A stretch of DNA of 64,000 nucleotides. Origin: Falseniella ignava CCUG 37419 (GTDB lineage Bacteria > Bacillota > Bacilli > Lactobacillales > Aerococcaceae). How positions within the stretch are numbered: position 1 is the stretch's first letter; each line of letters starts with the position of its first letter. The DNA lies in the NCBI RefSeq assembly GCF_000301055.1, contig NZ_JH932300.1, forward strand, positions 322,118-386,117, read 5' to 3'. The position numbers and the translations under genes were made by a program. Of this stretch, positions 12,152 through 60,365 are shown one piece after another. The notes under the pieces were generated by a model. That model saw nothing but the letters and a program-made list of their open reading frames with translations. It searched no databases and was not told the origin of the DNA.

Positions 12152-12158
12152 TATATAA

Positions 12159-12191
12159 TAGGTTGGACGATGTTCCAACCTGTTTTTTTTG
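12159..12191 (+). terminator. terminator after the L,D-transpeptidase
   Basis: AGGTTGGA and TCCAACCT pair around a short loop, followed by a run of eight T. Confidence 0.9.
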
Positions 12192-12223: not shown

Positions 12224-12430
12224 ATTTACGAGAATCGGTATTGTAATCTCCAAACATTCGGATAAGATTGGTAGAACCGTGTTTCCATTCTTTAAACTTT
12301 TAGATAAGATTGGTACAACCGTGGTCCCATTCTCCAAACTTTCTGATAAGATTGGTAGAACTGTGGTCCCATTCTCCAAACTTTCAGATAAGATTTGTAC
12401 AACAATGGTCTTAATCTCCAAATTCTTGTT
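12224..12430. repeat. 42-bp tandem array 2 (about five units)
   Basis: The element TCTCCAAAC (or its variant) recurs at 12247, 12289, 12331, 12373 and 12415, exactly 42 bp apart. Between these sit inverted half-sites ATTGGTAGAA, so TTCTCCAAA and ATTGGTAGAA alternate every ~21 bp. The left edge carries a variant half-site ATTTACGAGAA at 12224. The array lies between the convergent L,D-transpeptidase and uvrC genes, after the first gene's terminator. Open frames across it arise from the multiple-of-three period. Confidence 0.92.
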
Positions 12431-12497
12431 CCACAAGGCCACTCCACAGTCAAAATTACCACATAACGACTTGGCATCAAGCTGTTCACCATCGCAA

Positions 12498-12540
12498 CAA
12501 AAAATCGCTCAAAGACTTCATGTCTTTGAGCGTATTTTTT
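12498..12540. terminator. bidirectional terminator at the end of uvrC
   Basis: CGCTCAAAGAC (12506-12516) pairs with GTCTTTGAGCG (12522-12532). A-tract on the left and T-tract on the right let it work both ways; it ends at the uvrC stop codon. Confidence 0.9.
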
Positions 12541-14350
12541 ATGAAGTAAGTTGCTCACGGAGTGTTTCTTGAACGCGCTCGGCGGTTTTTCGAGGCACAC
12601 CAATCAATTTGAATTCATCGAGGTCTGCATCGCGCATAGCAGGTAAATCTTTAAAGTGTTTTAACAATTTATTGCGAGTCTTCGGACCGACACCAGGGAC
12701 TTGATCTAAGATAGAGCCGAATTGTGACTTAGACCGGACCGAACGGTGATAAGTAATCGCGTAGCGGTGAACTTCCTCTTGAATTCGCTGCAACAATAGG
12801 AATGCTTGACTGTCATGTGGTAAGTCAATGATTTCCTCGCTGTAGCCATCTAACAAGTTTGCTGTTCGGTGTCGGTCATCTTTGACCATTCCTGCAACTG
12901 GGATGGATAGGCCGAGCTCATTTTCTAAGACATCTCGCGCAGCTCGAACTTGAATGAGTCCTCCATCCATTAAAATCAAATCCGGCAGCGGTTGATCTTC
13001 TTTAATGAGTCGCGTATAACGGCGGCGGATAATCTCTTGGGTCGAAGCGTACTCGTTAGCGCCTTCGACCGTTTTAATTCTAAATTTCCGGTATTGGCTC
13101 TTATCAGGTTGACCGTTGAAGTAGCTGACCATCCCAGAAACCGCATGAATTCCTTGAATATTAGAATGGTCAAACGACTCGATCCGTTCCGCGGAAACAA
13201 TATTTAAGGCTTCGGCGAGTTGAGTCGTCGCGATCGTCGTCCGCTGTTCATTTTGAGCAAATAAACGGAAACGCTCATCCAAAGCAATTCGACTATTCTT
13301 CTCGCAAAGTTCTAACATCGCCCGTTTCTTACCACGAAGCGGGGTAGTCACAGGAATTTCAAAGTAATCTTCGAGCAGGGCATGGTCAACTTGACTCGGT
13401 ACTAGGATGGATTTCGGTAAAAGTTGCTCTTGCTCAGTATAGAAGCGAGCGATAAAGGTTGTGACTTCTTGTTCAGGGTCTCCAACACACGGGAAAATCG
13501 CTGCTTTACGCTTTATTATGGAACCTTGACGCAACATAAAGACTTGGATCGACAGCCACCCTAAATCATAAGTATAGCCAAAGACATCCATATTGTCATA
13601 ACCTTGGCTCATAATCACTTGGCGCTCGACGGTTTTCTCAATATATTGAATTTGGTCGCGGTAATCTGCTGCTTGTTCAAATTCCAAATTTTCAGCAGCT
13701 CGCTCCATTTTATGAACGAGTTCACTTTTTATCTCGTTAACATCGCCATTAAAGAATCGTTTAATTTTTTGGATTTGGGTTTGGTATTCCTCAGGGCTGA
13801 CTTCGTGGTCACATGGACCAATACATTGTCCGAGGTGATAATAGAAGCAGGCTCGTTTTTCGGTCTTGCTGCAGCGTCTGAGCGGGTAGGCACGGTTCAA
13901 TAAATCCATCGTACTTGTTGCAGCATATACATTTGGGAAAGGACCAAAGTAAGTGGCGCCGTCCTTTTCCACTTGATTAACGATGATTAATTGTGGATCA
14001 CGTTCACTCGTAATTTTTAAGTACGGGTACATTGTCGAATCTTTGAGTCGAATATTGTAAATCGGCTTATATTCTTGAATCAGATTAATTTCCAGAATCA
14101 ACGCTTCCTTGTCACTGTTAGTGACAATCGTTTCGAAATTATGGATATCGGCCACTAATTTTGTAGTTTTCGTATCGTGCGCTCCACGAAAATACGACCG
14201 AACTCGATTACGTAAGTTTTTAGCTTTTCCTACATAAATAATTTGGTCGTGTTGATCTTTCATCATATAAATTCCCGGGAGGTCGGGTAGAAGTTGTAAT
14301 TTTTGTTCAATCCGTTGACGAACTTCAGGATTGGTGCTATAACCTGCCAT
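12539..14350 (-). CDS. uvrC: UvrABC excinuclease subunit C
   Basis: The 603-residue subunit makes both incisions in nucleotide excision repair. In order: GIY-YIG nuclease domain (PGIYMMKD, IIYVGKAK, about residues 24-100), the UvrB-interacting UVR motif (AAENLEFEQAADYRDQI, about 205-235), the RNase H-like nuclease domain (ESFDHSNIQG, LILMDGG) and C-terminal helix-hairpin-helix (LDQVPGVGPKTRNKLL). Its ATG overlaps the stop of the upstream small gene (TAATG), so translation is coupled. Confidence 0.98.
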   Translation of the reverse strand: MAGYSTNPEVRQRIEQKLQLLPDLPGIYMMKDQHDQIIYVGKAKNLRNRVRSYFRGAHDTKTTKLVADIHNFETIVTNSDKEALILEINLIQEYKPIYNIRLKDSTMYPYLKITSERDPQLIIVNQVEKDGATYFGPFPNVYAATSTMDLLNRAYPLRRCSKTEKRACFYYHLGQCIGPCDHEVSPEEYQTQIQKIKRFFNGDVNEIKSELVHKMERAAENLEFEQAADYRDQIQYIEKTVERQVIMSQGYDNMDVFGYTYDLGWLSIQVFMLRQGSIIKRKAAIFPCVGDPEQEVTTFIARFYTEQEQLLPKSILVPSQVDHALLEDYFEIPVTTPLRGKKRAMLELCEKNSRIALDERFRLFAQNEQRTTIATTQLAEALNIVSAERIESFDHSNIQGIHAVSGMVSYFNGQPDKSQYRKFRIKTVEGANEYASTQEIIRRRYTRLIKEDQPLPDLILMDGGLIQVRAARDVLENELGLSIPVAGMVKDDRHRTANLLDGYSEEIIDLPHDSQAFLLLQRIQEEVHRYAITYHRSVRSKSQFGSILDQVPGVGPKTRNKLLKHFKDLPAMRDADLDEFKLIGVPRKTAERVQETLREQLTS

Positions 14351-14676
14351 TATTCATCCTCCTTTCGATGAGGGTAGCGTAAATGGGGTGGATGGTCCAC
14401 TGCTGAGCGATTTGCTTGAATTTGGTTTGAAGTGTATCGTTCAATAACAAATTGTTGGCGGTTGTTGTAATGTCCATAGATTTGGATTAAATCACCGACA
14501 GCCACATCCATTAAGAAAGTGAGTGCTTGACGAGCAATAATGCAACGCACGATTTCCTCAGCTTCTGTGGATATTTCGACGTACACGAGCGTTGGATCCA
14601 TTGGTTTAATAATCTTGTAACGGGTGACGACCCCTGATAGTTGTTGTTTATTCGATTTAGAATGTGGCATCATCAT
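14350..14676 (-). CDS. small OB-fold-like protein coupled to uvrC
   Basis: The 108-residue product (start could be any of three leading Met codons; AGGAGGGATGATG lies upstream) is not one I recognise by name. Residues ~14-80 alternate beta-like strands (SGVVTRYKII, TLVYVEIST, VGDLIQIYGHY, QFVIERYT), the look of an OB fold that binds nucleic acid. Its stop overlaps the uvrC start by one base, so the two are made together. I infer a DNA- or RNA-binding helper, not proven. Confidence 0.7.
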   Translation of the reverse strand: MMMPHSKSNKQQLSGVVTRYKIIKPMDPTLVYVEISTEAEEIVRCIIARQALTFLMDVAVGDLIQIYGHYNNRQQFVIERYTSNQIQANRSAVDHPPHLRYPHRKEDE

Positions 14677-14785
14677 CCCTCCTTATACATTTATCTGCAT
14701 TATTAATTATACCATAGGTTGTCAATTTGCTTTGATTTTCTGATTACGAGAACATTCTCTCATGTATCCTCTTTCATGGATGTGT

Positions 14786-14791
14786 TATAAT
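14786..14791 (+). promoter_or_regulatory. extended -10 promoter for the M3 peptidase
   Basis: TGTTATAAT has TG-N before a perfect TATAAT, identical to the box before ligA. Upstream at 14743-14752 is ATTACGAGAA followed by CATTCTCTC, which resembles a pair of half-sites of the 42-bp arrays. Confidence 0.6.
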
Positions 14792-14821
14792 AAACTAAAC
14801 AATAAAAATGGAGGTTATGAG

Positions 14822-16522
14822 ATGAAATTTAAAGATTTTGAATATCAACGTCCGAACTTAGAACAACTTAAAGAGCAATATGGAAGCTTAATCCAATCGC
14901 TTCGTGAAGCGGATAGTGCATCAGCAGGATTGGATGTGATTAAGCAAATTCAATCACTCCAACGTGATATTGATACACAGTACACGCTAGTTTCAATTCG
15001 TCATTCGATTGATACGCGCGATGAATTTTATGAGAAAGAAAATGAATTTTGGGATGAAAATTTACCTTATATTAGTGAATATAATACTGAATATTATAAG
15101 GCAATCCTAGATTCACCTTACCTTGAAGACTTCAAAAAAGAACTTCCTGAAACGTTCTTTAAAATGATGGAAAATGATTTGAAAGTTTTCAGTCCGGAAA
15201 TTATTCCATTACTTCAACAAGAGAATAAATTATCTTCTGAATATTCTAAGCTTTTAGCTTCAGCAGAAATTGAATTCCAAGGCGAAACATATAACTTAAC
15301 GGGATTAAGTAAATTCTTTGAATCGCCAGACCGTGCAGTTCGTCAAGAAGTGAACCAATTATCGTGGAATTTCTTCCAAGAAAACTTGGAACAGCTCGAC
15401 CGAATCTATGATGAATTAGTGAAATTACGTCACAAAATGGCAGTTCAATTAGGCTTTAAAGACTATGTTGAGATGGGTTACGCACGAATGAATCGTTTAG
15501 ACTATACCCGTGAAGATGTAGAAGTATACCGCAAAGAAGTCTTAAAACATGTTGTTCCACTAGTCGAATATATTTACGAACGTCAAAGCAAACGTCTCGG
15601 TATCGACTCAATGAAAAACTACGACTTAGGCTTAAGTTTCTTATCAGGAAACCCAACACCGAAAGGGGATTCGGAAGAAATTATTGCGAATGCAAAACGT
15701 ATGTATAGCGAAATGTCACCTGAAACGAAAGAATATTTTGATTTCATGCTCGAGCATGATGTGATGGATTTAGAAACAAAACCTGGTAAACAAGGTGGCG
15801 CATACTGTACCTATATTCCGAATTACAAAGCCCCATTCTTATTTGCTAACTTTAATGGCACATCGAATGATGTGGACGTCCTAACACATGAAGCAGGGCA
15901 TGGTTTCCAAGTGTTTGAATCTCGTTGGATTGAAACACCTGAAGTAGTATGGCCAACATTTGAAACGTGTGAGATTCATTCAATGAGTATGGAATTTATG
16001 GCATGGCCATGGTTAGAGTTGTTCTTTAAAGAACAAACAACGAAGCAAAAATATGCTCACTTAGCGGGAACGGCTATTTTCCTACCATATGGTGTGCTAG
16101 TCGACCACTTCCAACATGAAGTTTACGAGCATCCTGAGATGACTCCAGAAGAGCGTCGTCTAAAATGGCGTGAACTTGAAAAACTATACAATCCATGGAA
16201 AGATTATGATGGAAACGAAGTTCTAGAAGGCGGTGCGTTCTGGATGCGTCAACACCATATTTACAACTCACCATTCTACTATATTGACTATACTTTAGCG
16301 CAAGTTTGTGCATTACAATTCTGGCAACGTGGTCAAATTATTCAAGATGATACGTTCTGGGAAGACTACTTAGCCATTTGTAAAGTAGGGGGAACGAAGT
16401 CCTTTACCCAAGTTGTTGAGTTAGCTAACTTGAAAGTACCTTTCCAAGAAGGTAGCTTAGAATCTGTCAGCCATGCGATTCGTGACTACTTAGAGCAAAT
16501 TCCTGAGTCTGAACTTGAATAG
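14822..16522 (+). CDS. M3 family oligoendopeptidase
   Basis: A zinc metallopeptidase of 566 residues, the length of the pepF/M3 subfamily. The metal site is LTHEAGHGFQVFE (HExxH), with the third ligand in the helix TFETCEIHSMSMEF. No signal peptide is visible, so it acts in the cytoplasm on short peptides. The ATG at 14822 has GGAGG ten bases upstream; an in-frame ATG at 14762 overlaps the promoter and is rejected. Confidence 0.95.
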   Translation: MKFKDFEYQRPNLEQLKEQYGSLIQSLREADSASAGLDVIKQIQSLQRDIDTQYTLVSIRHSIDTRDEFYEKENEFWDENLPYISEYNTEYYKAILDSPYLEDFKKELPETFFKMMENDLKVFSPEIIPLLQQENKLSSEYSKLLASAEIEFQGETYNLTGLSKFFESPDRAVRQEVNQLSWNFFQENLEQLDRIYDELVKLRHKMAVQLGFKDYVEMGYARMNRLDYTREDVEVYRKEVLKHVVPLVEYIYERQSKRLGIDSMKNYDLGLSFLSGNPTPKGDSEEIIANAKRMYSEMSPETKEYFDFMLEHDVMDLETKPGKQGGAYCTYIPNYKAPFLFANFNGTSNDVDVLTHEAGHGFQVFESRWIETPEVVWPTFETCEIHSMSMEFMAWPWLELFFKEQTTKQKYAHLAGTAIFLPYGVLVDHFQHEVYEHPEMTPEERRLKWRELEKLYNPWKDYDGNEVLEGGAFWMRQHHIYNSPFYYIDYTLAQVCALQFWQRGQIIQDDTFWEDYLAICKVGGTKSFTQVVELANLKVPFQEGSLESVSHAIRDYLEQIPESELE

Positions 16523-16531
16523 AGGCCAACC

Positions 16532-17551
16532 ATGATAAGAGTTGGAACAATCGGAACGTCTTGGATTACGGAACGCTTTATTGAAGCATGTCAACTGACC
16601 AATCAATACGAACTTCGAGCTGTCTATTCGCGCAACGCTTATCGTGCTAAAGACATTGCAACAGTTTATAAAGCAACATACTACTCGGATGAGTTGAATA
16701 ATTTACTCTTTGATCCGGAAATCGATTTAATCTATGTTGCTAGTCCAAACTCGCTGCATTATGAACATGCGATGCGTGCGATTAAAGCAGGCAAGCATGT
16801 AATTATCGAAAAACCGATGTTTACTTCAACCAAAGAATGGCACCAAGCCCATGCAGAAGCAGAACGCCTCGGAGTGAAAATTTTCGAAGCCGCTTTGCAT
16901 ATTCATAACCGTAATTACCAACGGATGAAGCAATGGGTACAAAAGAAATTGATGGATGCGGAACAACCGTTCTTGGGAGCAAACTTTAATATCGGTCAAT
17001 ATTCGAGCCGATATTTTGCTTATAATCATGCCTTAGAACAGCACCGTGAGCTCCCGAATGTCTTTACCTTGGAGTATGCTGGGGGTAGCTTGATGGATCT
17101 CGGTGTCTATCCAATCTATGTTGCAATGGACCTCTTTGGGTCGCCAGACTCATTGCGCTATAACGCACAAAAAGGGCCTAATGGCGTTGATTTATTCGGC
17201 CATATTTTACTTACTTATTCTGATTTTCAAGTGAATATTTTTGTGTCGAAAGCAGCCCATTCGACGTTGTCAAGCGAAATTTATATCGACGATGAGACCG
17301 TGGTTATTCATGATATTTCTCGCATATCTCAAGTCGACTTGGTGAATAAAGAGGGGCAAGTTGCCAATGTGATTAAATATCAGCCAGAGAATGTCATGTA
17401 TGATGAAGTGTTAAATTTTTCAGAAATCATTCGAAATCCGGACGATTTGCACCATCAACTTCAATATGAAGGTTGGAAGCAATTGAGTCTCCAAGTGGCA
17501 CAAACAATGGAGTTATTACGAAAGTCTGCCAATATCGTGTTTGATGTTTAA
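16532..17551 (+). CDS. Gfo/Idh/MocA family oxidoreductase
   Basis: The 339-residue protein has an N-terminal Rossmann nucleotide-binding fold (VGTIGTSWITERFIEA) and the family motif VIIEKPMF, whose Lys-Pro contacts cofactor and substrate. The second half is the C-terminal substrate domain (GGSLMDLGVYPIY). It starts ten bases after the M3 peptidase stop with a GAGG site, so they probably share a transcript. The substrate cannot be told from sequence; sugar or polyol derivatives are usual. Confidence 0.9.
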   Translation: MIRVGTIGTSWITERFIEACQLTNQYELRAVYSRNAYRAKDIATVYKATYYSDELNNLLFDPEIDLIYVASPNSLHYEHAMRAIKAGKHVIIEKPMFTSTKEWHQAHAEAERLGVKIFEAALHIHNRNYQRMKQWVQKKLMDAEQPFLGANFNIGQYSSRYFAYNHALEQHRELPNVFTLEYAGGSLMDLGVYPIYVAMDLFGSPDSLRYNAQKGPNGVDLFGHILLTYSDFQVNIFVSKAAHSTLSSEIYIDDETVVIHDISRISQVDLVNKEGQVANVIKYQPENVMYDEVLNFSEIIRNPDDLHHQLQYEGWKQLSLQVAQTMELLRKSANIVFDV

Positions 17552-17581
17552 CAATTAAAAAATATGTCCGATGTGTATCTT

Positions 17582-17610
17582 TTGCATAAAGTATAACTAA
17601 TTGATATAAT
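17582..17610 (+). promoter_or_regulatory. sigma-A promoter for the GlsB-type gene
   Basis: TTGCAT (17582-17587), a 17-bp spacer and TATAAT (17605-17610). Confidence 0.75.
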
Positions 17611-17653
17611 TATAGTTGTAACATATCTTTATTTTGTAAAGGAGTGTATTTAT

Positions 17654-17911
17654 ATGTTAAGTACAATTTGGTATCTAATCGTCGGAGGACTTATTGGGTG
17701 GATCGCAGGCTTAATTCTTGGCCGTGATATTCCTGGTGGCGTAATTGGAAACATTGTTGCAGGCTTAATTGGTTCATCTGTAGGTGGATATTTATTTAAA
17801 GATTTCGGCCCACAATTAGCTGGAATTGCGATTATACCTGCAATTTTAGGTGCGATTATTCTCGTATTGATCGTGTCATGGATTTTCAAATCCTCAAATA
17901 GACGTGCATAA
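17654..17911 (+). CDS. GlsB/YeaQ/YmgE family stress membrane protein
   Basis: An 85-residue protein made almost wholly of three hydrophobic segments with Gly-rich motifs (GGLIGWIAGLILGRD, IGNIVAGLIGSSVGGYL) typical of the transglycosylase-associated/GlsB family. Family members are induced by general or cell-envelope stress; the mechanism is not known. It has its own promoter, an AAAGGAG site and a terminator. Confidence 0.9.
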   Translation: MLSTIWYLIVGGLIGWIAGLILGRDIPGGVIGNIVAGLIGSSVGGYLFKDFGPQLAGIAIIPAILGAIILVLIVSWIFKSSNRRA

Positions 17912-17934
17912 TTTATCTTAAATTGTTCAAAATC

Positions 17935-17973
17935 AAACCCTTCAAGGATCTAGAAGTCCTTGAAGGGTTTTCT
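17935..17973 (+). terminator. terminator after the GlsB-type gene
   Basis: AACCCTTCAAGGA pairs with TCCTTGAAGGGTT around a short loop, then TTTCTT. Confidence 0.9.
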
Positions 17974-18011
17974 TATGTTTTATGAGTCTAAAGCTGGGAA
18001 TGTATGTTTGG

Positions 18012-18255
18012 TTCTCGTGACTTCTGTTTAAGAATACTAGAATGAGAGTGGTGTTCTCTATAACTTCGAACAAGTTTAGTAGAATGGGAGTGCTGTTCTC
18101 CAAAACTTTGAACAAGTTTAGTAGAATAGTAGTGTTGTTCTACAAAACTTCAGACAAATTTAGTAGAATACAGGTGCTGTTCTCCAAATTTCCACTCATG
18201 ATTAGTAGAATTTGTGTACTGTTCTGCAAATCCTAGTTCAAGATTACGAGAATGA
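18012..18255. repeat. 42-bp tandem array 3 (six units)
   Basis: The element TTCTC/TTCTA/TTCTG starts at 18012, 18054, 18096, 18138, 18180 and 18222, exactly 42 bp apart. Most units read TTCTCCAAAA (forward half-site) then TTTAGTAGAA (inverted half-site), again about 21 bp apart. Only the half-sites are kept; the linkers differ. The right edge ends with ATTACGAGAA (18243-18252), like the left-edge variant of array 2. It lies between the convergent GlsB-type and NERD genes, behind a terminator. Confidence 0.92.
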
Positions 18256-18299: not shown

Positions 18300-19229
18300 C
18301 TATTTGTTTTTCAGTCTATGGTACAGACGCAACATATCTTCGAGGTATTCGCTTTCTGATACTTTGGCGTAATGTCCGTGATCAACTCTTATTAAAAGCT
18401 CTGACATCTGTTTTGATATCCAGTATTTATCGAGCTGTTTGTCGCACAGATTATAAACTTCTATTGGGCTGATAGTCTCTCGATCATATAATGAGCAACA
18501 TTCTGCAATAATATACTTCAGTGCTTCATGCTTCGTAATCTTGGCTGAACATTCTTGGCACTGGAAACTTTTGTATAGCTTGGTCATCTGAAAACTACCA
18601 CATTGATGACAATAAATGCCACGCCATAAATCTTTGACATTGAACGGATTAATCTTAAAGTGATTGTGCCAATCGTCAATTTGATATTTTCTTAAAACCT
18701 GATAAATCGAATGAGGGTCATAGTTGGCATGATTACAGTGATACTGCAGGCTTTGGAAATGCCTGCGTAGTTCATACCGCAATAAGATGGAAAGTTCTGA
18801 AGAGTTGTCCGATTTAAATGTTCCATAAGGATGGATCAGCACTAAGTGAGGAATAACTGGAATTCTTATGTTTTCTTTAATCAAAATATTTTTAAAAGAA
18901 TCACATGCCCGGTCGATTTGTTGCAGGGGATTATAATTTATATGGCGATCATTATAATAAATTTTCCCATCAATGAGCGAACAATCTGCATCATAATTTT
19001 TCACTTCATACAAATGAATCTGGTCAGGCATGATTAAGACCCCATCAACTTGAACAAAACCAGGTGTTTCAAAAATAAAGTCTTTTATAAAAAGTCCTTG
19101 ATTAGGGATAAACTGTTTAACAATCTGCAGAAAATCTTGCTCGCCTTCATACCCCATCACAAAATTATCAAGCCGATTCGTCTCATCACCACGAAAATAT
19201 CTTACCAAAAGTGTTTTAAGTTCTTTCAT
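18300..19229 (-). CDS. NERD-domain protein with C-terminal zinc ribbon
   Basis: The 309-residue protein starts with a nuclease-related (NERD) domain (about 25-140). The acid/lysine core of the PD-(D/E)XK fold is visible: GYEGE, QVDGVLI and YEVKNY. After it comes a four-cysteine ribbon (CHQCGS ... CQECSA, about 217-240) and a helical C-terminus. NERD proteins are predicted nucleases or DNA-processing factors; a defence or repair role is possible but unproven. GGAGG precedes the ATG. It has no operon partner and faces array 3. Confidence 0.8.
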   Translation of the reverse strand: MKELKTLLVRYFRGDETNRLDNFVMGYEGEQDFLQIVKQFIPNQGLFIKDFIFETPGFVQVDGVLIMPDQIHLYEVKNYDADCSLIDGKIYYNDRHINYNPLQQIDRACDSFKNILIKENIRIPVIPHLVLIHPYGTFKSDNSSELSILLRYELRRHFQSLQYHCNHANYDPHSIYQVLRKYQIDDWHNHFKINPFNVKDLWRGIYCHQCGSFQMTKLYKSFQCQECSAKITKHEALKYIIAECCSLYDRETISPIEVYNLCDKQLDKYWISKQMSELLIRVDHGHYAKVSESEYLEDMLRLYHRLKNK

Positions 19230-56475: not shown

Positions 56476-56547
56476 CACCGCTGGAGGGAATCGAACCCCC
56501 ATTTTAAGAACCGGAATCTTACGTGATATCCATTACACTACAGCGGC
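56476..56547 (-). tRNA. tRNA-Arg(CCG)
   Basis: The minus strand reads as a 72-nt cloverleaf: acceptor GCCGCTG with CAGCGGT, anticodon stem TAAGA / TCTTA around loop TTCCGGT with anticodon CCG at 34-36, and T-arm GGGGTTCGATTCCCT. CCA is not encoded. It reads Arg codon CGG. Confidence 0.92.
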
Positions 56548-60127: not shown

Positions 60128-60129
60128 GA

Positions 60130-60365
60130 GAAACAAAGAGAGATGACTAGTAATTATAGTGCAAACTTCAGCGAGATGATGGTAGGTGTGAATCATCGTT
60201 AGCCTGTAATGAATCCACATCTTATTCTGCCTATGAAAAACATCAAGTAGTGCCGGTCCCAGCCGTTATTGGTTAAGCGCAAGATTTATGATGAATCTTG
60301 AATTAGGGTGGTACCGCGACTGAACCTTTCGTCCCTTTCCAGGATGGAAGGTTCTTTTTATTATA
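60130..60365 (+). promoter_or_regulatory. T-box riboswitch, serine specific
   Basis: A classic T-box leader before serS. The conserved T-box AGGGTGGTACCGCG lies at 60305-60318. A terminator stem (AACCTT with AAGGTT, CGTCC with GGATG, 60326-60356) ends in a T-run. A possible specifier codon TCC (Ser), followed by A, is at 60214-60216. Uncharged tRNA-Ser should stabilise the antiterminator and allow serS transcription. Confidence 0.92.

Follow-up and report, generated by a model that had tools for sequence, protein, structure and literature searches.

Helically phased arrays of inverted half-sites pair with predicted NERD-domain nucleases in Falseniella ignava and other Bacilli

Three intergenic stretches in a 64-kb window of the Falseniella ignava genome (the window being the whole stretch of DNA analysed) are built of tandem 42-bp units carrying inverted half-sites, which raises the question of what these arrays are and what keeps their spacing. 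All are given on the forward strand: array 1 at positions 1–240, with about 5.5 units of 42 bp, array 2 at 12224–12430 and array 3 at 18012–18255, their half-sites being GCCAAACCAAA / ATTGGTCTGGC, TTCTCCAAA / ATTGGTAGAA and TTCTCCAAAAC / TTTAGTAGAA, respectively. TRF called repeats at 1–202, 12247–12422 and 18038–18188, and the self-match at a lag of 42 bp reached 0.81 in 150-bp windows; besides this lag and its double, the only signal that stands out in the window comes from a coding repeat near 57.1 kb. Together with the inspection of units (stacked, in the case of array 1), these results bear out the sequence-only reading that the three arrays share one architecture and differ in sequence, and the inverted half-sites are present in each of them as claimed. 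The units of array 2 start at 12248, 12290, 12332, 12374 and 12416 and those of array 3 at 18054, 18096, 18138, 18180 and 18222, so that the exact 42-bp period proposed earlier holds unit by unit in these two arrays. It does not hold genome-wide: longer arrays elsewhere in the genome show lags of 43/85/127 or 83/125 and therefore contain 1-bp indels, and related arrays with a period of 41 are also found there. Arrays 2 and 3 lie, as had been described, between convergent genes, each past a terminator-like hairpin (12157–12184 and 17935–17970, forward strand). Array 1 is upstream of a purK-like gene, not between convergent genes, and extends leftward past the window edge (C1:321.6–322.3k). A coding repeat (42 = 3 × 14) was rejected on account of the 1-bp indels, of the periods 31, 40, 41 and 52, which are not divisible by 3, and of the conservation of the inverted half-sites.

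Array 3 is located directly 3′ of a gene on the reverse strand (18300–19229), whose stop codon is about 45 bp from the array. The product, which we call nuclease b, has 309 residues and comprises a NERD domain, a zinc ribbon and a C-terminal winged helix, as assigned from the open reading frame, Pfam, conservation and an AF2 model. This neighbouring gene, the matching of each array family to a single paralog and the ladder of periods, the latter two described below, were absent from the sequence-only reading. The NERD domain (PF08378) is detected at E 1e-11 with 45.7 bits, the curated Pfam cut-off being 22.1, and the profile matches 77/77 homologs. The residues of the predicted PD-(D/E)XK fold are E30, D62, E75 and K77, and the zinc-ribbon cysteines are C207, C210, C224 and C227; among 86 proteins D62, K77 and the four cysteines are invariant and position 75 is either E or D. 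The NERD/zinc-ribbon/winged-helix proteins are taken as predicted nucleases. In the AF2 model (mean pLDDT 93), residues 1–167 resemble the PD-(D/E)XK nucleases Cdn1, VC1899, Can2 and EndoMS (Z 8–9.7), and the C-terminal part, modelled alone with a pLDDT of 93.5, is akin to winged helices of the MarR, PadR and AspA type, at a modest Z of about 6. Foldseek against the PDB returned nothing under E 0.001 for the whole model or for the C-terminal part, and these fold assignments therefore rest on a second aligner. Searches for plasmid or phage carriage with the nuclease b protein gave no match at E 1e-10. A scan of genome contigs with a transpeptidase-like protein had no hits. Around the nuclease loci no partner gene recurs, the biggest group of homologous neighbours covering 7 of 81 loci.

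The same genome encodes four paralogs of nuclease b, that is, five genes in total, and 5/5 have an array of period 41 or 42 immediately next to them, either on one side or on both. Families were assigned by aligning the unit consensuses circularly. Array 1 matches the arrays around the nuclease at C1:547k, as well as those at 313k, 314k and 576k, with z 11–27, and all of these go with that nuclease (family c); the array at 610k groups with the nuclease at 308k (family a), and array 2 matches array 3, beside nuclease b, with a z of 5.3 (family b), all z-scores being relative measures obtained from short repetitive sequence. The three arrays of the window, previously taken as a single family, thus fall into two: array 1 goes with the nuclease at C1:547k and arrays 2 and 3 with nuclease b, arrays 1 and 2 being unlinked to their own gene. 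The 5′ and 3′ arrays of a given gene match each other, no cross-matches between families were detected by circular consensus alignment in this genome, and arrays in stretches sampled away from the nuclease genes each fit one of the five families. Further unlinked arrays were located by BLAST for family a (C1 244k, 271k, 300k, 306k and 610k), family d (C1 290k and C2 607.6k) and family e (C2 340k, 539k, 607k and 614k, and C1 599k); this census combines pattern searches, BLAST and the sampling of stretches of the genome, and some arrays are partly masked as N. The pairing is also found in genome G035, where 12 of the 14 paralogs have an adjacent array and each array in the sampled stretches matches the array of a single nuclease (z 10–20, again a relative scale).

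Arrays are not restricted to this stretch and were found in many genomes. Across Bacilli, an array lies within 1 kb of the gene at 100/122 full-length loci, which were gathered by protein similarity only and include some near-identical orthologs; the remaining 22/122 have no detectable array. The array threshold was reached in 89 of about 184 flanks closer than 1 kb, versus 4 of about 208 tiles 3–6 kb away. In a phylum search, arrays accompanied 13/13 full-length homologs versus 0/14 homologs containing only the NERD domain, and the array therefore goes with the C-terminal part of the protein. No array of period 40–43 or 50–53 was detected in 398 kb sampled from four genomes devoid of the gene, and about a dozen arrays were present in the stretches sampled from four genomes containing it. 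At 90 loci for which the side was scored, the array is only 3′ of the gene in 39 and only 5′ in 13. The number of gene copies ranges from 0 to 14 per genome. Proteins more than 80% identical have array sequence in common and those below 50% almost never do, which suggests that the sequence of the arrays turns over and their architecture stays.

Gene and arrays are also present or absent together among sibling species. At one locus of genus g19, beside the same gene, six genomes contain the nuclease gene with its arrays (G059, G065, G066, G067, G068 and G070), four contain neither (G060, G061, G062 and G064), one contains an array without the gene (G071) and one an array-like stretch from a different family (G069). 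This pattern could reflect loss instead of movement.

Regarding the spacing of the units, the base periods of arrays flanking the nuclease genes cluster at 20–21, 31, 40–43, 50–53 and 72 bp, with a period of 62 met in one sampled stretch. These values form a ladder in whole helical turns, in agreement with the phasing proposed from the first three arrays: in 114/122 flank arrays the period deviates by no more than 1.6 bp from a multiple (2–8) of the 10.35-bp turn, and among the remaining ones the periods 102 and 104 correspond to about ten turns. The 51–52 class belongs to one protein clade of 66 proteins, none of which has a period of 41–42, and the 41–42 class is found outside that clade. 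In G035, one family occurs in two forms, with a period of 41 bp in array L249 and of 51 bp in array L223; the arms, TATAACTTCRTATG / GGTATGAAGTTATA, are identical and one linker is extended from 6 to 16 bp. Periods in whole turns, together with two forms that differ by a 10-bp linker step, suggest that the proteins form a lattice on double-stranded DNA. Each unit spans an integral number of helical turns, and its length varies with the protein clade.

The arms of the units are better conserved than the linkers in most families. Information content in arms and linkers, respectively, is 1.64 and 0.83 bits in family c, 1.67 and 0.95 in family e, 1.58 and 1.00 in family d, 1.64 and 1.10 across the six sibling species of genus g19, and 1.56 and 1.13, 1.64 and 1.24, and 1.86 and 1.33 in the unit sets G035-31, G035-41 and G035-43. 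In these seven sets only 0–2 circular shifts equal the arm excess, so that 7/9 large unit sets are positive; with automatic arm choice, the excess is absent in family a and G035-51. Selection on the half-sites, as suggested earlier, is thus upheld for most of the larger families, but in array 2 or 3 taken alone the excess falls short of significance, being equalled by 5 or 6 of the 41 circular shifts. Per-unit conservation worked better than palindrome scoring of the consensus, by which most 51–52-bp arrays were not separable from shuffles; at the consensus level the inverted symmetry of the arms is weak in many of these arrays. Conserved mismatches between the arms are retained, and a single change usually disrupts a pair; family c has 40 pair breaks and 0 restoring double changes. 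On these substitution counts, pairing of the arms as such is not under selection.

The explanation that we favour, with a probability of roughly 0.7, is that the arrays are cognate DNA sites of the stand-alone NERD + zinc ribbon + winged helix nucleases, which would bind them as a phased lattice. It builds on what the sequences show directly: array families pair with genes, the units are helically phased and generally have conserved arms, the period depends on the clade, and gene and arrays are present or missing together. A dimer would bind each pair of inverted half-sites through the winged helix, and adjacent dimers would sit along the same face of the duplex and touch each other, so that, within this proposal, only whole-turn linkers would be tolerated. 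A protein tiling one face of the DNA was among the earlier suggestions and fits this proposal. The nuclease may also act on its own arrays or on neighbouring DNA, driving tandem growth and spread via recombination or gene conversion, a step that we put forward tentatively. The two-part module, composed of a nuclease gene and of adjoining and scattered arrays of inverted half-sites, is apparently undescribed so far. The system would be a REP/RAYT-like, probably selfish repeat family driven by a resident nuclease, with unrelated parts and double-stranded sites. To the wider view that this is a new class of gene–repeat module, in which a NERD/zinc-ribbon/winged-helix nuclease binds its own phased arrays as a lattice, spreads them in trans and changes its specificity fast, as a non-homologous counterpart of REP/RAYT, we give even odds.

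Other roles can be envisaged for a nuclease and its arrays. The protein might be a defence or toxin-like nuclease that represses its own gene, is kept harmless on the arrays, which would act as operators or decoys, and is released onto invading DNA. The adjoining position of arrays and gene fits this, as do the occurrence of NERD in defence proteins and weak matches to PglW, MkoA and MAD6. However, the excess of 3′-only over 5′-only arrays would be an odd placement for operators, many arrays are distant from any gene of the family, and no defence-type or antitoxin-like neighbour recurs around the nuclease loci, which makes such a role unlikely. Alternatively, by coating the arrays the proteins might provide markers for the nucleoid, for replication or for segregation, the nuclease fold serving for structure or repair. 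Relative to the strand with positive GC skew, nearly all arrays in F. ignava have the same orientation in both large contigs, and the winged-helix likeness includes the centromere-binding AspA. In G035, however, the orientation is not uniform; a chromosome-organising system would also be at odds with the patchy distribution among sibling species, the variable copy number, the intact catalytic residues and the fast turnover of array sequence, and we regard it as quite improbable.

Every unit could fold as a hairpin, and the tandem repeats adjoin a nuclease gene, which would agree with processed RNA hairpins, also contemplated in the sequence-only reading, or with an RNA antitoxin beside its nuclease. 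In type III toxin–antitoxin systems (ToxIN), tandem direct repeats work as an RNA antitoxin and immediately precede the toxin gene, which encodes an RNase. Most of the arrays described here lie on the 3′ side of a gene with a DNase fold or at a distance from one, and they are phased in DNA turns; type III toxin–antitoxin identity was rejected on the side counts (39/90 loci 3′-only, 13/90 5′-only), the inverted half-sites and the DNA-turn periods. The persistent arm mismatches, the great excess of pair-breaking over restoring changes, the steps of 10 bp between periods, the lack of any Rfam match over the arrays and the distance of some arrays from all family genes leave an RNA role very improbable. 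Finally, function-free tandem repeats can arise by slippage and homogenise with no tie to a nuclease. Such a neutral origin is scarcely credible given the contrast between full-length and NERD-only homologs, that between near and far flanks, the gene-less genomes without arrays, the one-to-one pairing of families and the dependence of period on clade.

The phased-lattice reading places the module next to REP/BIME elements, which form ‘REPtrons’ with RAYT (TnpA-REP) genes (PMC2817692, PMC8266576); a likeness to them with no relationship in sequence had been noted at the outset and is upheld. As in REPtrons, a nuclease gene is flanked by its own palindromic repeats (PMC2817692, PMC8266576), here a repeat family that is also dispersed in the genome; the repeats alternate in orientation, are intergenic, both clustered and dispersed, and each protein has its own family with which it co-evolves. 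RAYTs, however, are HUH/Y1 transposases whose substrate is single-stranded REP bearing a GTAG motif, whereas the protein here combines a NERD domain of the PD-(D/E)XK nuclease fold with a zinc ribbon and a winged helix, and its arrays are strictly periodic in whole turns. PF01797 (Y1/HUH, IS200/IS605-like transposase) is absent from the F. ignava genome, control genomes being positive. Membership in REP/RAYT was rejected because the Y1 transposase is absent and the protein fold is different.

Among NERD proteins (PF08378), SmdA of Staphylococcus aureus (PMC9040797), PglW and MAD6 share the domain but have different partners, such as a membrane helix or a kinase, and the 14 NERD-only homologs examined lack arrays. 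No paper tying NERD proteins to repeat arrays was found in open-licence full texts. A survey of CRISPR and interspaced repeats lists NERD as a putative CRISPR auxiliary gene and describes six non-CRISPR repeat systems (PMC10910872), with one of which the NERD module may overlap. Regular arrays tied to a nuclease gene recall CRISPR, but the linkers here are short and recur between units instead of being unique hypervariable spacers. CRISPR identity was rejected for lack of unique spacers between the repeats.

If the phased-lattice reading is true, the NERD domain, which is found both in defence proteins and in an essential division protein of staphylococci and is without a measured activity in the literature found, would gain a defined DNA partner. 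About 100 natural protein–DNA pairs with fast-changing specificity would then provide a resource for learning winged-helix recognition, and the arrays would be a clear example of helical phasing that evolution has maintained. The finding also suggests that REP/RAYT-like nuclease–repeat systems arose independently in Bacilli.

Arrays of tandem inverted half-sites (arms), each family of which is paired with one NERD-family nuclease gene, have counterparts in other genomes. A 42-bp-like array with half-sites ATTCCGTGGGA / TCCACGGAAT is located near uvrC in a genome of another genus, G058 (L017:3981-4400). In G069, a genome of the sibling-species genus g19, an array-like stretch of a different family (AAAAGATGGATA / TATCCATCTTTT; L262) is found between the g19 flank genes, at the site occupied in the sister species by the NERD module, composed of the nuclease gene and its arrays. 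The arms ATAACTTCGTAT / ATACGAAGTTAT of one G035 family (L249:1618-2095 and L223:7409-8490) closely resemble the arms of loxP, with which this family also has a short spacer in common; the likeness is possibly due to chance.

The window itself also contains two ordinary features, a tRNA gene (56476-56547) and a T-box leader (60129-60339). Elsewhere on C1, one of the two large contigs of Falseniella ignava, an IS3-like transposase ORF pair splits the reading frame of a P-type metal ATPase (L062:12607-16288; C1:317.6-321.3k). The array at C1:313k (L062:8081-8557) is built of higher-order repeats of three units (126 bp), whose copies are identical, a sign in the sequence that it may have grown recently by blocks of units.

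Across C1:244-610k and C2:340-614k, array loci of any one family are nearly all co-oriented, C1:280k being the single, weak exception, and on both large contigs they sit on the strand of positive GC skew. The array orientation hints at a link with the direction of replication.
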